NCBI GenBank assembly: GCA_003244275.1
Contig: QHCF01000150.1
Coordinates: forward strand, 1 to 39,424
Source: Acidimicrobiales bacterium
GTDB lineage: Bacteria; Actinomycetota; Acidimicrobiia; Acidimicrobiales; QHCF01
Length of the DNA stretch: 39,424 bases
Direction of reading: 5' to 3'
Position numbers and translations under genes: made by a program. The number at the start of each line of letters is the position of its first letter. Position 1 is the stretch's first letter. This document shows, piece after piece, positions 5,021 to 13,790 of the stretch. The notes under the pieces were generated by a model. The model saw nothing but the letters and a program-made list of their open reading frames with translations. It was not told the origin of the DNA and made no database searches.

Positions 5021-6802
5021 GTGACGATAGGTTCTCCGGCCGCGGGCAGCGTCCTGGTCGTCTCGGCCAGCATGGGCGGGGGCCACGACGGGGCGGCCAG
5101 GGAGCTGTGCCGCCGGCTGGAGGAGCGGGGCTGGCATACCCGCATGGTCGACTTCCTGCGGGCTGCCCCGGTCATGGGACGGTTGCTGCGCTGGGGTTAC
5201 ACGGCCCAGCTCCGGGCGGCGCCGTGGACCTACGAGGCCACCTACCAGGTGTGGGCCCAGTCAGTGCTGGCCCGGCCGCTCGTGGTGGTTCTCGCCTTCG
5301 TCTTCGGTCGGCGGATGCGGCGCTGGGCGGTCCAGCTGGGGGCCGACGCGGTCGTGACCACCTATCCGCTGGCCTCGGTGGCTCTCGGACATGACCGCCG
5401 CCGGGGTCGCCTGGACGTGCCGGTGGTGACGTTCGTGACCGACTTCGCCGTGCATCCTCTGTGGGTCCATCCCGGCGTGGACCTGAACCTTTGCGTCCAC
5501 CAGCAGTCGGCCGACCAGGCGGCGGCGGCTACCGGTCGCCCCGCACGGGCGACGGGACCCATGGTGGCCGAGGCCTTTCGGCGGCCCGGTGGGTCCCGGT
5601 TGGAGGCCCGCGCTGCCCTTGGCCTGCCGGCTGAGGGAAGAGTGGTGCTGGTGGCGGCCGGCTCCTGGGGGGTGGGCGAGCTGGAGGAGACCTTCGACTC
5701 CATCCTGGCCTCCGGGCGGTACCTGCCGGTGGTGGTGTGCGGAGCCAATAAGCGGCTGCGCCGTCGCCTGGCCGCCCGCGCTGGGGGCGTGGCCATGGGG
5801 TGGACCGACCAGATGGCCACCCTCATGACCGCGGCTGACGTGCTGGTGGAGAACGCCGGCGGGCTCACCTCCATGGAGGCACTCTCGGTGGGCCTGCCGG
5901 TGGTTACCTTTCGGCCGATACCGGGACACGGCCGCCAGAACGCCCTGGAGATGGACAAGGCAGGGGTTACTGCCTACGTGTCAGATCCCGAGCAGCTGAT
6001 GGCGGCCCTCGACCGGGTCACCACCCTGGCCGGGCGGGGGATGGTGGCGGCCGGGAGGGCCATGTTCTGCGCTGACCCGACCGACGACATCCTGGAGCTG
6101 ATCGGCCAGTCAACACCGGTGCCCGGGGCGGCGGTGGATGACGTGCGTCGCCTCGGGCACCCGAGTCGGCCCCGGCGCCTGATGAAGGCCGGCGCGGCGG
6201 CGGCCATGGTCTACGCCGGTCTGAACCTGGCGGCCGACGCGGCCACTGCCCACGGGCTCGGGGTGGCGCACGCCCAGCCTCACGTCGCCGCCATCTACCT
6301 GGGCCTGATGATCGGGCCAGCCAACGCCAGCGGGCCCGTGGCGGCCCTATTGGCCAGGGACCATGTCACCGCCATAGTCAACGGGCGACTGGCCAGGGTG
6401 GACCCTGGCGCCGTTCGTCGCCTGATGGAGGCCGGCGACGAGGTGGCCAACGGGGGGTGGGGTGACCAGGACCGCCTGCACGTGCTCCAGATGGAGGACG
6501 GCGTGTCCCGTACCAACCGTGTGATCCACCTGGCCGGCTATCGGTGCTGTCGTGACTACGCCCCCCAGCAGGGCATCAATGGCTCCGACCTGGCCCTGGC
6601 CAGGATCGCCCACGAGCGCATCGTCCATCCCAGCGCAGTGGTGGGGATGGGTGCCCCACTTCCCCGTCTGTCGGCCGGTTGGATCTATGTCATAGACGCT
6701 CAGGGAGCCTCGACCACGCTGATCGAGCAGCGCCTGGACCACCTGATTGCGGCCGCCAACCAGCGGGGGCTCACCACCGCTTCATTCGCTTCGCTTCGTT
6801 GA
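5021..6802 (+). CDS. MGDG-synthase/MurG-like glycosyltransferase with C-terminal deacetylase-like domain
   Basis: A 593-residue protein. Residues 1-380 are a GT28-type GT-B fold: VVSASMGGGHDGAA is the glycine-rich acceptor-loop signature of monogalactosyldiacylglycerol synthases and MurG, and ENAGGLTSMEALSVGLPVV is the nucleotide-sugar binding region. Such enzymes transfer a sugar to a lipid at the inner membrane face. After a hydrophobic stretch (about 388-415), residues 420-593 resemble a polysaccharide-deacetylase fold but lack the TFDDG metal motif, so this part is probably non-catalytic. GTG 5021 is the only start that keeps the first strand without running into the divergent gene. The next gene is a complete deacetylase and overlaps the stop by four bases (TTGA). 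Confidence 0.85.
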   Translation: MTIGSPAAGSVLVVSASMGGGHDGAARELCRRLEERGWHTRMVDFLRAAPVMGRLLRWGYTAQLRAAPWTYEATYQVWAQSVLARPLVVVLAFVFGRRMRRWAVQLGADAVVTTYPLASVALGHDRRRGRLDVPVVTFVTDFAVHPLWVHPGVDLNLCVHQQSADQAAAATGRPARATGPMVAEAFRRPGGSRLEARAALGLPAEGRVVLVAAGSWGVGELEETFDSILASGRYLPVVVCGANKRLRRRLAARAGGVAMGWTDQMATLMTAADVLVENAGGLTSMEALSVGLPVVTFRPIPGHGRQNALEMDKAGVTAYVSDPEQLMAALDRVTTLAGRGMVAAGRAMFCADPTDDILELIGQSTPVPGAAVDDVRRLGHPSRPRRLMKAGAAAAMVYAGLNLAADAATAHGLGVAHAQPHVAAIYLGLMIGPANASGPVAALLARDHVTAIVNGRLARVDPGAVRRLMEAGDEVANGGWGDQDRLHVLQMEDGVSRTNRVIHLAGYRCCRDYAPQQGINGSDLALARIAHERIVHPSAVVGMGAPLPRLSAGWIYVIDAQGASTTLIEQRLDHLIAAANQRGLTTASFASLR

Positions 6803-7632
6803 CCGGAGCCGGTCATGGGCGCCCGCGCCGGTCTCCCGAGCGGCGCTGCCCGGCTGGTCGGGCCGGTGGTCTGGCGGCCGGTCGGGCCAGAGGCGTGGCG
6901 GCTGGTCGGGCCGGTGGCCTGGTGGGAGCCGCGGCCGGGGTCAGTCTGTTGGGCGCTGCCGTACTCCACGCCGGACCGGCCCTGAGCGCCGTCGGCCCCC
7001 TGCGCCGGCGCCTGCTCCCTGCACTGGCTGGACTGGGCGACGCCGCCCATGTGGCCCTCACGTTTGACGACGGCCCCGATCCTGCCTCCACGCCCATGTT
7101 CCTCGATGCCCTGGCTGACCTCCGCTGGCGAGCCACCTTCTTCATGCTTGGTGACATGGCCCGCCGCTGCCCGTCCCTGGCGGCCGAGGTGGCGGCCGCC
7201 GGTCACGAGGTAGCCCTGCACGGCGACGGCCACAGATCCCACCTGTGGCGCACTCCCCGAAGTGTGGCCGACGACGTCCGCCGGGGACTCGACTCCGTGG
7301 CCCAGGCGACCGGAGCCGTACCGGTGTGGTGGCGGCCCCCCTACGGCGTTATCACCAGCAGTGGCTTGCGGGCCAGCCACCAGGCCGGTCTTCGCCCGGT
7401 GCTGTGGACGACCTGGGGGCGGGACTGGCGGACCGAAGCTACCCCGGACACCGTGATGGCTGACGTGGAGACTGACCTGGTGCCGGGCGCCACCGTGCTG
7501 CTCCACGACTCCGACTGCACGTCGGCCCCGGGGGCATGGCGTGCTGGCCTGCTGGCTCTACCGCGGCTGGCCGAGTCCTTCAGCCGACTGGGTTGCGAGG
7601 TAGGCCCGCTGGCCGAGCACGGGCTCGACTGA
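6799..7632 (+). CDS. NodB-type polysaccharide deacetylase
   Basis: Carbohydrate esterase family 4 enzyme that removes acyl groups from N-acetylated sugars in envelope glycans. Motifs: LTFDDGPDP (metal-binding Asp), HGDGH, the WWRPPYG arginine motif and VLLHDSD near the end. A hydrophobic segment (GVSLLGAAVLHAGPAL) before the domain suggests membrane anchoring. Start is uncertain: TTG 6799 overlaps the preceding stop as TTGA, matching other junctions here, and includes a 24-base triple repeat in frame; GTG 6895 and GTG 6922 are alternatives giving 245 and 236 residues. Probably co-transcribed and co-functional with the glycosyltransferase before it. The catalytic domain is clear; the N-terminus is not. 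Confidence 0.88.
   Translation: MTGAGHGRPRRSPERRCPAGRAGGLAAGRARGVAAGRAGGLVGAAAGVSLLGAAVLHAGPALSAVGPLRRRLLPALAGLGDAAHVALTFDDGPDPASTPMFLDALADLRWRATFFMLGDMARRCPSLAAEVAAAGHEVALHGDGHRSHLWRTPRSVADDVRRGLDSVAQATGAVPVWWRPPYGVITSSGLRASHQAGLRPVLWTTWGRDWRTEATPDTVMADVETDLVPGATVLLHDSDCTSAPGAWRAGLLALPRLAESFSRLGCEVGPLAEHGLD
6852..6923 (+). repeat. 24-bp tandem repeat, three copies
   Basis: Units at 6852-6875, 6876-6899 and 6900-6923 share the core GGYYGGTCGGGCC. In the deacetylase frame they encode an 8-residue repeat of the type GRAGGLAA. The unit is a multiple of three, so copy-number change would keep the frame. Confidence 0.85.
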
Positions 7633-7776
7633 TCACCGGTGCCATGACGCGCTTGCTGGTTGAGCAGCTGACCGTGATCGACCCGCAGGCCCGGCTTGGA
7701 GAGTTCGCCGGCGGTTGGACAGCTCCGAGACCCAAGCCGTAGACACCGCTCTCCAGGTGGTTCTCGCACCTGCGTG

Positions 7777-7846
7777 TGGGCCTTCGAGAAGGCAGCCGCT
7801 CCCCACCACACCGCCCTGTTCTTCGACCCTCATGCGGGCCTTCCTG
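7777..7846 (+). repeat. Dispersed duplicate: 50 bp of ubiA joined to 20 bp of dprE1
   Basis: 7777-7826 equals 9682-9731 with no mismatch; 7827-7846 equals 10176-10195 with no mismatch. The first piece is out of its original frame relative to the remnant that follows; the second keeps its frame (LMRAFL). Both copies are in the same orientation as their sources. Confidence 0.85.
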
Positions 7847-7978
7847 GCCCGGCGGGACGACGGCAACTTGCACTTCACCACCGACTTTCGCTCCGTCTAC
7901 GCAACGGTGTTGGAACGGGTGGTCGGAGTCGATCCCAAGGTGTCGCTGGGCCGCAGCTTCCTACCTGGCCTTCGTGTG
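7832..7978 (+). pseudogene. Remnant of a DUF1501 protein C-terminus
   Basis: The frame starting at 7832 reads FTTDFRSVYATVLERVVG followed by VDPKVSLGRSFLPGL. This resembles the C-terminal end of DUF1501 (sulfatase-like secreted) proteins, which normally exceed 350 residues. Only about 50 residues remain, with no recognisable domain upstream, so this is a gene fragment. The frame runs on without a sensible end into the vapC 3' region. Family recognition is by pattern memory and moderate. Confidence 0.5.
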
Positions 7979-7983
7979 ATTGG

Positions 7984-8421
7984 TCAATCCAGGATCTCAA
8001 GGTCCACCTGCAGTGCCCGGTAGGTGTCGATGGCCCGGCGATCACGAGTCACCAGGCGTATCCCGTATGCAACTGCAGTGGCGCCGACCAGTGCGTCGTA
8101 GACGGCCCCGCCGGCAATGCCCAGGGTCGCCAAACGCCAGAGCAGTTGGCCGGCGGGCGCCTCCCCAAGAAACAGGGTCTCCGAAAAATTGCTGGAGATC
8201 AGCTGGTGAGCGGCGCTAGGGGTGCGCCGCAGCGGTGGGGGCAGTCTGGTCAGAACCGAGAAGGTCTCGAAAGCGGCATGACCAGCCAGGCCTAGGTGAC
8301 GGCCTCGCAGCGAACCCATAGTGACCTGGTGGTGCTCATGGTCGGACACGAGCAGCGCAACAGCGACACTCGTGTCTACCAGCGCGTCGGGCTCCGCCCC
8401 TCCCTCAGCGTTGTGCGGCAT
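7984..8421 (-). CDS. vapC: PIN-domain toxin ribonuclease (VapC family)
   Basis: A 145-residue PIN-domain protein, expected to be an Mg2+-dependent RNase that cuts tRNA or rRNA when freed from its antitoxin. The acidic set is complete: Asp16 in LVDTSVAVALL, Glu52 in AAFETFSVLTR, Asp109 in VYDALVGATA and Asp127 in VTRDRRA. ATG 8421 starts within the last 17 bases of the antitoxin gene, the usual translational coupling of vapBC operons. The pair sits between remnants of other genes, consistent with arrival by transfer. RNA target unknown. Confidence 0.92.
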   Translation of the reverse strand: MPHNAEGGAEPDALVDTSVAVALLVSDHEHHQVTMGSLRGRHLGLAGHAAFETFSVLTRLPPPLRRTPSAAHQLISSNFSETLFLGEAPAGQLLWRLATLGIAGGAVYDALVGATAVAYGIRLVTRDRRAIDTYRALQVDLEILD

Positions 8422-8638
8422 CGCGAAGGACCTGGACGATCTCGTCGTCGATGCGGCCTCCCGCTGGGGGGATGACCAGGCGCCCGTCCTCCTCTGAAAG
8501 CTCGTCCCCGGCAACAGGCTCCACTCGAAGGCCGGCGCCGTCCAGGGTCACCTCAACCTCTCCGGCAGGAATTCCGACTTGGTCCCGCAATGGCTTGGGA
8601 ATCACCAATCGTCCAGCCTTGTCAATGGTTGTGCGCAT
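8405..8638 (-). CDS. vapB: AbrB/SpoVT-type antitoxin (VapB family)
   Basis: A 77-residue antitoxin. The N-terminal half is a swapped-hairpin AbrB DNA-binding domain (MRTTIDKAGRLVIPKPLRD, then LDGAGLRVEPV); the acidic C-terminal half (GDELSEEDGRLVIPPAGG) is where VapC is normally bound. It should repress its own promoter and neutralise the downstream toxin, whose gene it overlaps by 17 bases. ATG 8638 is preceded by TAATAT at 7 bases, so the mRNA is probably leaderless and the AbrB dimer could bind across the start site. Confidence 0.9.
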   Translation of the reverse strand: MRTTIDKAGRLVIPKPLRDQVGIPAGEVEVTLDGAGLRVEPVAGDELSEEDGRLVIPPAGGRIDDEIVQVLRDAAQR

Positions 8639-8645
8639 ACCAGCG

Positions 8646-8651
8646 ATATTA
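8646..8651 (-). promoter_or_regulatory. -10 element (TAATAT) of vapBC
   Basis: On the minus strand TAATAT-N7-ATG. This is the closest match to the TATAAT consensus among the leaderless-type sites in the window. Confidence 0.5.
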
Positions 8652-8659
8652 CCATCAGC

Positions 8660-8809
8660 CAACTTCGACGGCGTGTGGAGGTCGATCGCTACCTTCGTGC
8701 ACCACTTCTGGCACCGGGGTCGGTCTACCTGGGCGAGAACCTTGCCCTGGTGAGTACCCGGTGGGGAGCCAAACTGGTCCTCGACACAAGGTTATCGAGA
8801 GCCGGTGAC
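8660..8809 (+). pseudogene. Possible remnant of an FkbM-type methyltransferase N-terminus
   Basis: The frame at 8660 reads VYLGENLALVSTRWGAKLVLD, resembling the segment that precedes the SAM-binding domain in actinobacterial FkbM-family methyltransferases. The SAM domain is absent; the frame ends without it before the ubiA-type gene. Together with the DUF1501 remnant it suggests older genes were broken where vapBC now sits. Recognition is from pattern memory. Confidence 0.4.
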
Positions 8810-8892
8810 CGGGAGCTGAACGCGGTCAGCTGGGGCGAGTGCCGCGTGGGCGCCCCAAGTAAGCTGGCGATGCCGACGCAGGCGAACACGGC

Positions 8893-8898
8893 GAGAGG
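8893..8898 (+). promoter_or_regulatory. Ribosome binding site deciding the TTG start of ubiA
   Basis: GAGAGG, 6 bases before TTG 8905. No ATG or GTG in this frame lies at a suitable distance. Confidence 0.6.
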
Positions 8899-8904
8899 TG
8901 AGAG

Positions 8905-9894
8905 TTGAGGGAGCAATCCAGCGGCGTCGGGACGCGGGTCGGTGCGCCAGGCAGGGCCGCCGGCGACCTCCGACCGGTCGAGTCCTCCGCTGGCTCTGGA
9001 CGTCGATCCCGGCGCACCGGCATCGTCCTTGGCTTGATCCGCACAGCCCGACCGCGCCAATGGGTGAAGAACGTGCTGGTGCTGGCGGCCCCCGGCGCGG
9101 CTGGGGTTCTCACTCACCTGCATCCCCTGCTGTTGGCGTTGGGAGCCTTCGGCATCTTCTGCCTCACCGCCAGTGGCACCTACCTGGTCAACGACTGCCT
9201 GGACCAGGCGGCGGATGCCCTGCACCCGACCAAGCGTCACCGACCGGTCGCATCGGGGGCGGTCCCAATGCGCCTGGCGGCCGCGGTGGGCGTGGCCATG
9301 ATGGCCCTCGGCATCGGACTGGCGGAGGCTCTGGCTGGCTGGCGTTTGGCCACCGTCATGGGCATCTATGTGGGCATCACCGTCGCCTACAGCCTGTGGC
9401 TCAAGGACGAGCCCGTCATCGACCTGGCCTCGGTGGCCTCCGGCTTCGTGCTACGGGCCATTGCCGGCGGGGTGGCGGTCGGCGTGGTGCTGTCCAACTG
9501 GTTTCTCATCGTGGCGTCCTTTGGGTCGTTGTTCATGGTGGCCGGCAAGCGCCACGCCGAGCACGTCGATCTTGGTCCCAGCCGAGCTGACCACCGGGTC
9601 ACCCTCGGCGCCTATTCCCTGGCTTTCCTGCGTTACATTCGCTCGGTGGCGTCGGCGGTGGCCATCACCGCCTACTGCGTCTGGGCCTTCGAGAAGGCAG
9701 CCGCTCCCCACCACACCGCCCTGTTCTTCGAGCTGTCGATCGTCCCCTTCGTGATTGCCGTCCTGCGCTACGCCCTGCTCCTCGACGCCGGCCAGGGCGG
9801 GGCGCCGGAGGAGATCGTCCTCAAGGAGCGCAGCCTTCAGGTCCTGGGCCTGGCTTGGGCGGTCCTTTTCGCCATGGGTCTTTATGGCGCCTGA
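8905..9894 (+). CDS. ubiA: Decaprenyl-phosphate phosphoribosyltransferase-like UbiA family enzyme
   Basis: A 329-residue polytopic prenyltransferase-fold enzyme; its mycobacterial homologue (Rv3806c) joins phosphoribose from PRPP to decaprenyl phosphate, the first committed step to decaprenyl-phosphoryl-arabinose. About nine spans follow a basic 40-residue N-terminus. The NDxxDxxxD metal motif is at 96-104, followed by HPTKRHRPVASG; the second loop has YSLWLKDEPVIDLASVASGFVLRAIAGG-type sequence with YSLWLKD and RAIAGG. TTG 8905 is the start: GAGAGG at 8893-8898 is a good ribosome site 6 bases upstream. Its end overlaps dprE1 by 11 bases, and dprE2 follows, which strongly supports the assignment. 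Confidence 0.9.
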   Translation: MREQSSGVGTRVGAPGRAAGDLRPVESSAGSGRRSRRTGIVLGLIRTARPRQWVKNVLVLAAPGAAGVLTHLHPLLLALGAFGIFCLTASGTYLVNDCLDQAADALHPTKRHRPVASGAVPMRLAAAVGVAMMALGIGLAEALAGWRLATVMGIYVGITVAYSLWLKDEPVIDLASVASGFVLRAIAGGVAVGVVLSNWFLIVASFGSLFMVAGKRHAEHVDLGPSRADHRVTLGAYSLAFLRYIRSVASAVAITAYCVWAFEKAAAPHHTALFFELSIVPFVIAVLRYALLLDAGQGGAPEEIVLKERSLQVLGLAWAVLFAMGLYGA

Positions 9895-11272
9895 GGCGGC
9901 CACCGCTTCAATGAAGCCTGAATGCCTGGCCGGCTGGGGGCGGACTGCTCCCAGTCGGGCCTACATAGCTCGCCCTCACCAACTGGGCCAGTTATCCGAC
10001 CTGATGGAGTCCCCGGCGCCGCGGGGGATCGTTGCCCGGGGGCTGGGCCGCAGCTACGGTGACGCAGCTCAGTGTGCGGGCGGCACGGTGGTGGACGTCA
10101 CCGGACTCGACCGGATCCGTCAGGCCGACCTCACCACCGGCCAGGTCCGGGTCGAGGCAGGTGTGAGCCTGGAGGCCCTCATGCGGGCCTTCCTGCCCAG
10201 GGGCTGGTTCATCCCGGTTTCCCCTGGGACCCGTCATGTCACGGTAGGAGGCGCTCTGGCCGCCGACATCCACGGCAAGAATCACCACCAAGACGGCTCC
10301 TTCGCCAATCACGTCAGTTCCCTCGACCTGATTAGCCCCACCGGACCCCGCTCCCTGACCCCCAGCGGCCCCGAGGCCGACCTGTACTGGGCCACCGCCG
10401 GTGGCCTGGGCCTGACCGGCATCATCACCGAGGCCACCGTGTCCCTCATGGCGGTAGAGACCAACCGTGTCCGGGTCGACACCGAGAGGCTGGCCAACCT
10501 CGACGAGCTCATGGCGGCCATGGAGGCGGGTGACGAGGCCTACAGGTACTCGGTGGCCTGGGTGGACTGCCTGGCCAAGGGACGTTCCCTCGGACGCGCT
10601 GTCCTCACTCGGGGAGACCACGCCACGCTGGCCGAGCTACCAGCCAAGCAGCGACCGGCAGCCCTGGCCTACGACCCACGGGTCCGCGTTCGGGTGCCGG
10701 CCGTGGTACCCGGCGGCCTGCTCAACCTGGCCACGGTGAGGGCCTTCAACGAGCTCTGGTACCGCAAGGCACCCCGACGAGAGCACGGCCGCCTCCACCC
10801 CTTGACCGGCTTCTTCCATCCGCTCGATGCCATTGGCTCATGGAACCGGCTCTACGGGTCACGCGGTTTTCTCCAGTACCAGCTGGTGGTGCCCTTCGGC
10901 GCCGAGGACACCCTCCGACTGTGTGTCGAACGCCTGAGCGACAGCGGCTGTGCCTCGTTCCTGGCCGTGCTCAAGCGGTTCGGTCCGGGCGATCCTGGGC
11001 CACTGTCGTTTCCCATGGCCGGCTGGACCCTGGCCCTGGACATTCCCGCTGGCGCCCCCCAGCTCTGGTCGCTGCTGGATGGCCTGGACGAGGAAGTCGC
11101 CGGCTGCGGCGGGCGGGTCTACCTGGCCAAGGACTCCCGGCTACGGCCCGAGCTGTTGCCCAACATGTATCCCCTGCTCGACAAGTGGAAGGCAGTGCGC
11201 GACCAGGTGGATCCAGACAGGGTGCTGAGCTCCGACCTGGCCCGGCGACTGGGCCTGGTGGAGGGGCCATGA
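9884..11272 (+). CDS. dprE1: Decaprenylphosphoryl-beta-D-ribose 2'-oxidase
   Basis: A 462-residue FAD enzyme of the VAO type that oxidises the ribose 2'-OH of decaprenyl-phosphoryl-ribose to the keto form. Seen: GWGRTAPS (18-24), FAD-binding ARGLGRSYGD (51-60), VGGALAADIHGKNHH (121-135) with the histidine matching His132 of the M. tuberculosis enzyme, and YLAKDSR with Lys416 matching catalytic Lys418. In the GWxxxxD segment (380-386) alanine 384 occupies the place of Cys387, the residue covalently hit by benzothiazinones. ATG 9884 overlaps the end of ubiA by 11 bases; ATG 9911 is an alternative. dprE2 follows 19 bases on, and the two normally act as a pair. Confidence 0.94.
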   Translation: MAPEAATASMKPECLAGWGRTAPSRAYIARPHQLGQLSDLMESPAPRGIVARGLGRSYGDAAQCAGGTVVDVTGLDRIRQADLTTGQVRVEAGVSLEALMRAFLPRGWFIPVSPGTRHVTVGGALAADIHGKNHHQDGSFANHVSSLDLISPTGPRSLTPSGPEADLYWATAGGLGLTGIITEATVSLMAVETNRVRVDTERLANLDELMAAMEAGDEAYRYSVAWVDCLAKGRSLGRAVLTRGDHATLAELPAKQRPAALAYDPRVRVRVPAVVPGGLLNLATVRAFNELWYRKAPRREHGRLHPLTGFFHPLDAIGSWNRLYGSRGFLQYQLVVPFGAEDTLRLCVERLSDSGCASFLAVLKRFGPGDPGPLSFPMAGWTLALDIPAGAPQLWSLLDGLDEEVAGCGGRVYLAKDSRLRPELLPNMYPLLDKWKAVRDQVDPDRVLSSDLARRLGLVEGP

Positions 11273-12068: not shown

Positions 12069-13790
12069 ATGGCGCAGTCGCGCCCTGACATCCTGGTGGG
12101 GCCGAGGTCCCCTACCCCGCCGAGAGCCGTAGGTACCCGCCGGCTCTGGCCGCCCTGGGTCCCAATGGCAATCGGGGCTGTGTGTCTGGCTGGTCTTTTC
12201 CTGATATGGCTGACAGTTCTCTACGGCGCCTCCTGGCACGTGTTCCTGGGTAACTCCGATGACGCCAATGCCGTCCTGGAGGGCCATTCCCTGGCCAACG
12301 GCAACCTCGTGCTCCACGGCTGGAGCCTGTCTGCTGACTCCTACTGGACCACCGACTTGCTCTTCTATGCCCTCTTCAGTGCGGTGGAAGGTGTCCGGCC
12401 GGCACTCATGCACCAGGTTCCCATGATACTGGCCATAGGTGTCGTTCTTTTGTCGGCAATCACTTCCAGTCTGGGTTTCTCACGAGTGGGGAAGTGGACG
12501 GGAGCATCCGCCACCTTTCTGATCCTGGGTGTTCCGGCCTGGTACCTGGTCTCGGTCTTCTACCAGGGCCCTCAGCACGTGGGAACTACCTTGTTCTGCC
12601 TGGCAGCCTTCCTGGCCCTGTCCCGCATGCGCCTTGGACGGGCATGGGCGCTGGGTACCTTGCTGATGACGGCGGCCCTGGTGGGCGATCCCTTCGCCTT
12701 GCCTATCGGAGTCATACCTCTGGGGCTGGTCGGTCTGGCCACGGCGGTAGCCCGGCGCCGATGGCAGTTGGCGGTGGCCCCTGTTGGCGCCGCCTTGGCG
12801 GCGGTGGGGTTGAGCGAGATCGCCTTCTCCCTCCTGCGCCACTTTGACGGCTACACGACCTACCCGGTGATACCCCTATCCCATCCCAGCCAGTGGCCGA
12901 CCAATCTCGGCAACGCGCTCATTCAACTGTGGGACCTGCTCGGGGGCCAGGTGACCTTCTCCACCCGCTGGGAGATCCTGGTGATGGCCGCCCACCTGCT
13001 GGGCATGGCGGCGATTGTCGCCGGGGTGGCAGTCGCCTCTGGTCGGCTAGTTCGAGACGTGATGCTCCGAACCCAACCCAGCAGGTACCGCCGCTCCGTC
13101 GGCTCGGTGCTCGAGAGGTTCTTGGTGGTCGCCGTCTGGGGGAATGTGGCCACCGTCCTCGTGCTCGGCGGGGTCGCCCGCTATCTGATCCCCGGACTGG
13201 CCTTCGGTGCCATCCTCGGTGGCAGGTTCGTCGGCGCGACAGCGGCCCACCTCCGGGCCCGCACAGCGGCCCACCTCCGGGCTCGAACAGCGGCCCACCT
13301 CCGGGCTCGCCCGTCAGGGGCCCATCGGGCTGCGGGCGGCACATATCCGGTTCTGGTGGTGCCCGGCCTGGTGGTGTTGGCGGCGATAGGCTATAGCGCC
13401 AGCCTGGCTTCGATCAGTCATCTGCCGACGCGCCAGGACCCAGCCCGGTCCCTGGTTACGTGGCTGAGTGCCAGCAGCCTCGACCACGGCATTGGCACTT
13501 ATTGGGATGGGTCGCTGATGACGGTGAACAGCGACGACCAAGTTGGCGTCCGTTCGGTCCTGTCCGTCCACGGTCGCCTGCTGAGATATCAGACCAACAG
13601 CTCGGCCAGCTGGTACCCGCCGGCGTCGTCACCGCTGGCGGCGCGATTCCTCGCCTACACGCCATCCCAGCCATGGGGAGGAGTCAACGCCACCAGCGCT
13701 ATCGCCACCTTCGGGCCGCCCTCCTCGAGCAGGCAGATCGGCCAGTACGAGGTTCTGATCTGGGACCATGGTCTGGCCACTTCGGGATAG
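12069..13790 (+). CDS. GT-C-like polytopic membrane protein, candidate arabinofuranosyltransferase
   Basis: A 573-residue protein with roughly ten hydrophobic spans and a C-terminal extracytoplasmic domain (about residues 450-573). The first large loop carries GNSDDANAVLEG (Asp64-Asp65), where GT-C glycosyltransferases keep the catalytic acid pair. It follows dprE1 and dprE2 by 15 bases, so I infer that it transfers arabinofuranose, or another sugar, from a polyprenyl-phosphate donor on the outer face of the membrane. No Emb, Aft or TfpW motif is recognised, so the sugar is uncertain. Residues 391-414 are three copies of TAAHLRAR in a basic loop. It converges on the polysaccharide operon with ten bases between stops. 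Confidence 0.75.
   Translation: MAQSRPDILVGPRSPTPPRAVGTRRLWPPWVPMAIGAVCLAGLFLIWLTVLYGASWHVFLGNSDDANAVLEGHSLANGNLVLHGWSLSADSYWTTDLLFYALFSAVEGVRPALMHQVPMILAIGVVLLSAITSSLGFSRVGKWTGASATFLILGVPAWYLVSVFYQGPQHVGTTLFCLAAFLALSRMRLGRAWALGTLLMTAALVGDPFALPIGVIPLGLVGLATAVARRRWQLAVAPVGAALAAVGLSEIAFSLLRHFDGYTTYPVIPLSHPSQWPTNLGNALIQLWDLLGGQVTFSTRWEILVMAAHLLGMAAIVAGVAVASGRLVRDVMLRTQPSRYRRSVGSVLERFLVVAVWGNVATVLVLGGVARYLIPGLAFGAILGGRFVGATAAHLRARTAAHLRARTAAHLRARPSGAHRAAGGTYPVLVVPGLVVLAAIGYSASLASISHLPTRQDPARSLVTWLSASSLDHGIGTYWDGSLMTVNSDDQVGVRSVLSVHGRLLRYQTNSSASWYPPASSPLAARFLAYTPSQPWGGVNATSAIATFGPPSSSRQIGQYEVLIWDHGLATSG
13239..13310 (+). repeat. 24-bp tandem repeat, three near-perfect copies
   Basis: Units at 13239-13262, 13263-13286 and 13287-13310 differ only in the last few bases of each unit. 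Each encodes TAAHLRAR in frame within the GT-C-like gene, adding a positively charged stretch between two spans. Confidence 0.95.

Follow-up and report, generated by a model that had tools for sequence, protein, structure and literature searches.

Short copies of ubiA and dprE1 joined in series between two gene relics of an Acidimicrobiales genome: a possible repair scar

Introduction

Templated filler at end-joining junctions is best known from eukaryotic repair, and the bacterial record of filler as long as that considered here is poorer than the eukaryotic one. The locus analyzed in this study resembles such filler in that short pieces copied from nearby separate the joined ends and microhomology is limited to 0-3 bases. 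It differs in its bacterial host, which carries Ku and a LigD-type ligase, and in that the mechanism is deduced from sequence. Short-patch double illegitimate recombination, which Harms et al. reportedly described in 2016, is said to place intragenomic segments illegitimately elsewhere in a bacterial genome. The likeness to our locus is that short intragenomic segments come to lie in a new place in a bacterial genome. The events described there are reportedly substitutions in a naturally competent species, whereas the present scar consists of two abutting patches, in source order, within pseudogene debris.

Bacterial tandem duplications that later undergo deletion (PMC3411829) likewise explain why copied pieces keep their order and orientation, but nearly the entire second copy would need to vanish to leave the locus described here. 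The surrounding strip resembles pseudogene graveyards at synteny breakpoints, with frameshifted 3′ ends of mazF and a DUF1501 gene, a 5′ piece of fkbM, and an adjacent toxin-antitoxin module; unlike the usual graveyard, it holds a fresh, near-exact copy of neighboring housekeeping genes. Intragenomic short patches, templated filler, and duplication-deletion are all known kinds of event, of which the scar is a further instance, and its uncommon feature is that two patches stand in series.

The stretch of DNA analyzed here as a whole (the window; 39,424 nucleotides) is contig C203 of a 2.27-Mb metagenome-assembled genome in 247 contigs, which is 88% complete and 6.5% contaminated. Acidimicrobiales-like actinobacteria are its relatives, and the closest genomes compared share only the order with it.

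Abutting copies of ubiA and dprE1 sequence

The original prediction described exact matches of 50 and 20 bases lying directly against each other, and both were recovered as described. Bases 7777-7826 are identical to 9682-9731 (50/50) and bases 7827-7846 to 10176-10195 (20/20), each a maximal exact match; the two abut with zero overlap and run in the same order and direction as their sources, with 444 source bases skipped. If a single mismatch is allowed (G at 7776, C at 9681), the first match begins at 7770, which gives a ubiA-derived patch at 7770-7826 on the forward strand (source 9675-9731; 56/57). The second would reach 24/26 if extended to 7852, but because the sequence from 7844 on belongs to a DUF1501 relic, its proper length is 20, and the dprE1-derived patch occupies 7827-7846 on the forward strand (20/20), its last 3 bases (CTG) being common to that relic. 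Both sources lie on the forward strand inside intact genes. The first is in ubiA (8905-9894; 1.7e-109 to profile NF008978), the product of which is decaprenyl-phosphate phosphoribosyltransferase by that profile, and the second is in dprE1 (NF053785, 9.6e-184).

Chance was estimated in 367 kb of sequence from the same genome by counting positions with an exact same-strand 20-mer copy 60-3000 bases away. Only 118 positions in the 367 kb had such a copy; 64 belonged to the scar or to its ubiA and dprE1 source segments, and an N-gap artefact accounted for part of the rest. The probability for a given 20-mer is thus about 1.5e-4 or less, and here the 20-mer also abuts a 50-mer in source order. No exact repeat in the window is longer than the 50-mer, and the 57-base pair was the strongest short near-exact repeat when the 367-kb sample was compared with itself. 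The insert matches its own genome far beyond chance, in agreement with the earlier expectation for two abutting matches. Within the same 367-kb sample, no genome-wide patchwork of gene fragments was seen.

The 77 copied bases differ from their sources once, by a GTC/GTG change that is synonymous when read in the ubiA frame. The ubiA genes of other families are only about 79-86% identical over the patch stretch, so the source was the genome's own ubiA or a very close gene. The ubiA|dprE1 junction is blunt, with 0 bases in common, and the dprE1|DUF1501 junction has 3 bases in common (CTG at 7844-7846); short or absent microhomology at these two junctions is what templated filler would show. Five unassigned bases, CGCAC (7765-7769), separate the ubiA patch from a mazF relic. 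The ends that bound the insert were not originally adjacent: the 3′ relic of mazF is on the left and a truncated 3′ relic of the DUF1501 gene is on the right.

As the window comes from a metagenome-assembled genome, an assembly or library chimera was weighed, and we consider it very unlikely. The genome is fragmented, its contamination has been given above, and at least one of its scaffold gaps has duplicated edges: at 3125-3256 of L081, an N-gap carries the same 22 bases (ATGGCGAAGGTGAGGACATGGC) on both edges as an artefact of scaffolding. An independent copy of the scar junction was also absent from the 394 other genomes of the class and the viral contigs searched. However, because both source genes are whole and unbroken, no exchange at the 50-base repeat could have produced the second copy, and assemblers work with overlaps far longer than the 0 and 3 bases seen at the junctions. 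There is no N in 7600-8000, and the flanking relics have indels of their own, which argues for real, old sequence.

Gene relics flanking the insert

To the left, a polysaccharide deacetylase gene (PDA; 6778-7632, forward strand, start approximate; PF01522, 3.5e-27) forms the right end of an MGDG-synthase/deacetylase block kept in relatives. Next comes the relic of a MazF/PemK toxin gene (7631-7764, forward strand), of which the 3′ end is left and in which a frameshift of 1 base has occurred. This relic was recognized by a DNA match of 77% over 135 bp to L087, an intact gene in a genome of another family (G163) that encodes a PemK/MazF toxin (PF02452, 4.9e-17). Amino-acid identity is 74% and 67% in the two frames, and the translation keeps EQLTVIDPQARLGEFAG and then, past the one-base frameshift, LDSSETQAVDTALQVVL. 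Bases 7681-7711 also match antisense rpsH of one relative (30/31), but this was put down to chance: the genome's own rpsH matches at only 20/22, and the stretch lies entirely within the mazF relic alignment.

To the right, the 3′ end of a DUF1501 gene occupies 7844-7979 (forward strand; translation DDGNLHFTTDFRSVYATVLERVVGVDPKVSLGRSF) and shares 87% identity with a second, likewise decayed copy on contig C235; the homologous open reading frame L029 belongs to PF07394 (1.4e-23). No intact DUF1501 gene was found in the window's own genome. The C235 copy is itself a remnant, upstream of which the translation reads, by inspection, as DUF1800 debris; frameshifted fragments at about 2580-3352 of L004 (C235) make up what is left of a DUF1800-DUF1501-like gene pair. 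This pair and the relic in the window suggest that DUF1501 genes were lost at least twice in the lineage. A 14-base sequence, GCTGGGCCGCAGCT, at 7945-7958 and 10042-10055 had been put forward as a possible third patch; it falls inside the DUF1501 alignment and is a coincidence of shared LGRS codons, so this patch was discarded.

Beyond the DUF1501 relic lies a toxin-antitoxin module on the reverse strand. The longest frame of its VapC-like PIN-domain toxin spans 7984-8514 (PF01850, 3.6e-11), with the true start probably nearer 8421, and the VapB-like antitoxin of the AbrB/MazE fold spans 8405-8662 (PF04014; TIGR01439, 3.1e-9). The 5′ part of an FkbM-family methyltransferase gene follows at 8687-8790 (forward strand), where the match to L094 is 75% in DNA over 68 bp and 56% in amino acids over 34 residues; the L094 frame belongs to PF05050 (8.4e-22). 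Bases 8791-8839 are 80% identical over 49 bases to a ribonucleotide-reductase-like frame (L096), a weak match (E 4e-4), and are possibly a further small relic in the strip. With the mazF, DUF1501, and FkbM relics and VapBC, the interval 7631-8904 is a small graveyard of gene ends with one toxin-antitoxin module.

The strip is placed where the MGDG-synthase/deacetylase block meets a ubiA-dprE1-SDR block. In several other families the deacetylase adjoins an MGDG-synthase-like gene, as it does in the window, and ubiA and dprE1 were neighbors in four of six relatives examined, with the SDR gene next in one. Within the flanks read, the deacetylase was near ubiA-dprE1 in none of the six. Because the blocks are not together in the relatives examined, the strip is a synteny breakpoint between two older blocks. 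The original prediction overlooked both this breakpoint and the identity of the flanks as mazF and DUF1501 pseudogene ends.

Possible origin of the insert

Both flanking relics have indels or frameshifts while the patch has only its one silent difference, so the patch looks younger than its flanks; by this comparison of sequences, it was probably put in place later than the relics. We favor, at roughly even odds (about 0.5), the reading that 7770-7846 is a nonfunctional scar in which a junction of pseudogene relics was filled with DNA copied from the nearby ubiA-dprE1 stretch, by template switching or as end-joining filler. A break or rearrangement would have joined the remains of mazF to those of the DUF1501 gene where two unrelated conserved blocks had met. 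During end joining, the ubiA-dprE1 stretch, which lies some 2 kb downstream, would have served as the template, with copying taking 57 bases in ubiA, skipping 444 bases forward, and taking 20 bases in dprE1, before a final join to DUF1501 at the 3-base CTG overlap. We infer that the copying was a single template-switching or filler event. The mosaic proposed originally is therefore real and template switching is its leading explanation, whereas gene conversion with a diverged copy, offered at the same time, does not fit a patch that is 98-100% identical to the genome's own ubiA and dprE1 when the ubiA genes of other families are so much more distant.

The main rival is a tandem duplication of a 2,352-base unit (DUF1501 at about 7844 to dprE1 at about 10195, with the CTG overlap) that then eroded. 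The 77 bases would be all that the left copy kept after one deletion had removed the sequence between mazF and ubiA 9675 and another had removed 444 bases (9732-10175). Such a history accounts for order, orientation, equal identity, and the 3-base junction by ordinary bacterial events, and bacteria often undergo duplication or deletion at short repeats (PMC3411829). We nevertheless regard it as possible but doubtful, since it takes three separate events and the coincidence that just two small pieces survived. Its 444-base deletion would also have occurred without microhomology, while the confirmed junctions in a Salmonella study had longer microhomology (PMC3411829). No other part of 8000-10195 recurs in 7633-7983, although such traces may have been deleted.

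A Ku gene adjoins an ATP-dependent ligase gene of the NHEJ type on contig C127, the ligase scoring above the curated cut-off of TIGR02779. This pair speaks for the filler reading. Like the 57- and 20-base patch lengths and the blunt ubiA|dprE1 junction, it would also suit the capture of short DNA fragments, whether the cell's own or those of lysed kin, through end joining or double illegitimate recombination as reported for Acinetobacter baylyi. Two independent fragments are not expected to arrive in source order and orientation, and we judge this origin unlikely. As for the copied filler that we prefer, a broader proposal would be that Ku and LigD-type end joining in this lineage serially copies several short nearby pieces into break junctions, yielding templated filler of several patches, as polymerase-theta repair does in eukaryotes; we hold this to be rather unlikely.

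The scar has no sign of function and on its own represents a single event, but it is a natural, readable record of the breakage and rejoining of one bacterial chromosome. Within a span of 1.3 kb, two conserved blocks occur together with three gene relics, a toxin-antitoxin module, and copied filler. Further scars of this type, should Ku-positive genomes prove to hold them, would reveal the way in which gaps are filled during end joining in bacteria.

Other observations

MazF/PemK-type loci occur at 10 places, which is many toxin-antitoxin modules for a genome of 2.27 Mb. Elsewhere in the window, a 24-base tandem repeat (ACAGCGGCCCACCTCCGGGCC...) is present at 13239-13309 within the open reading frame at 12069-13790.
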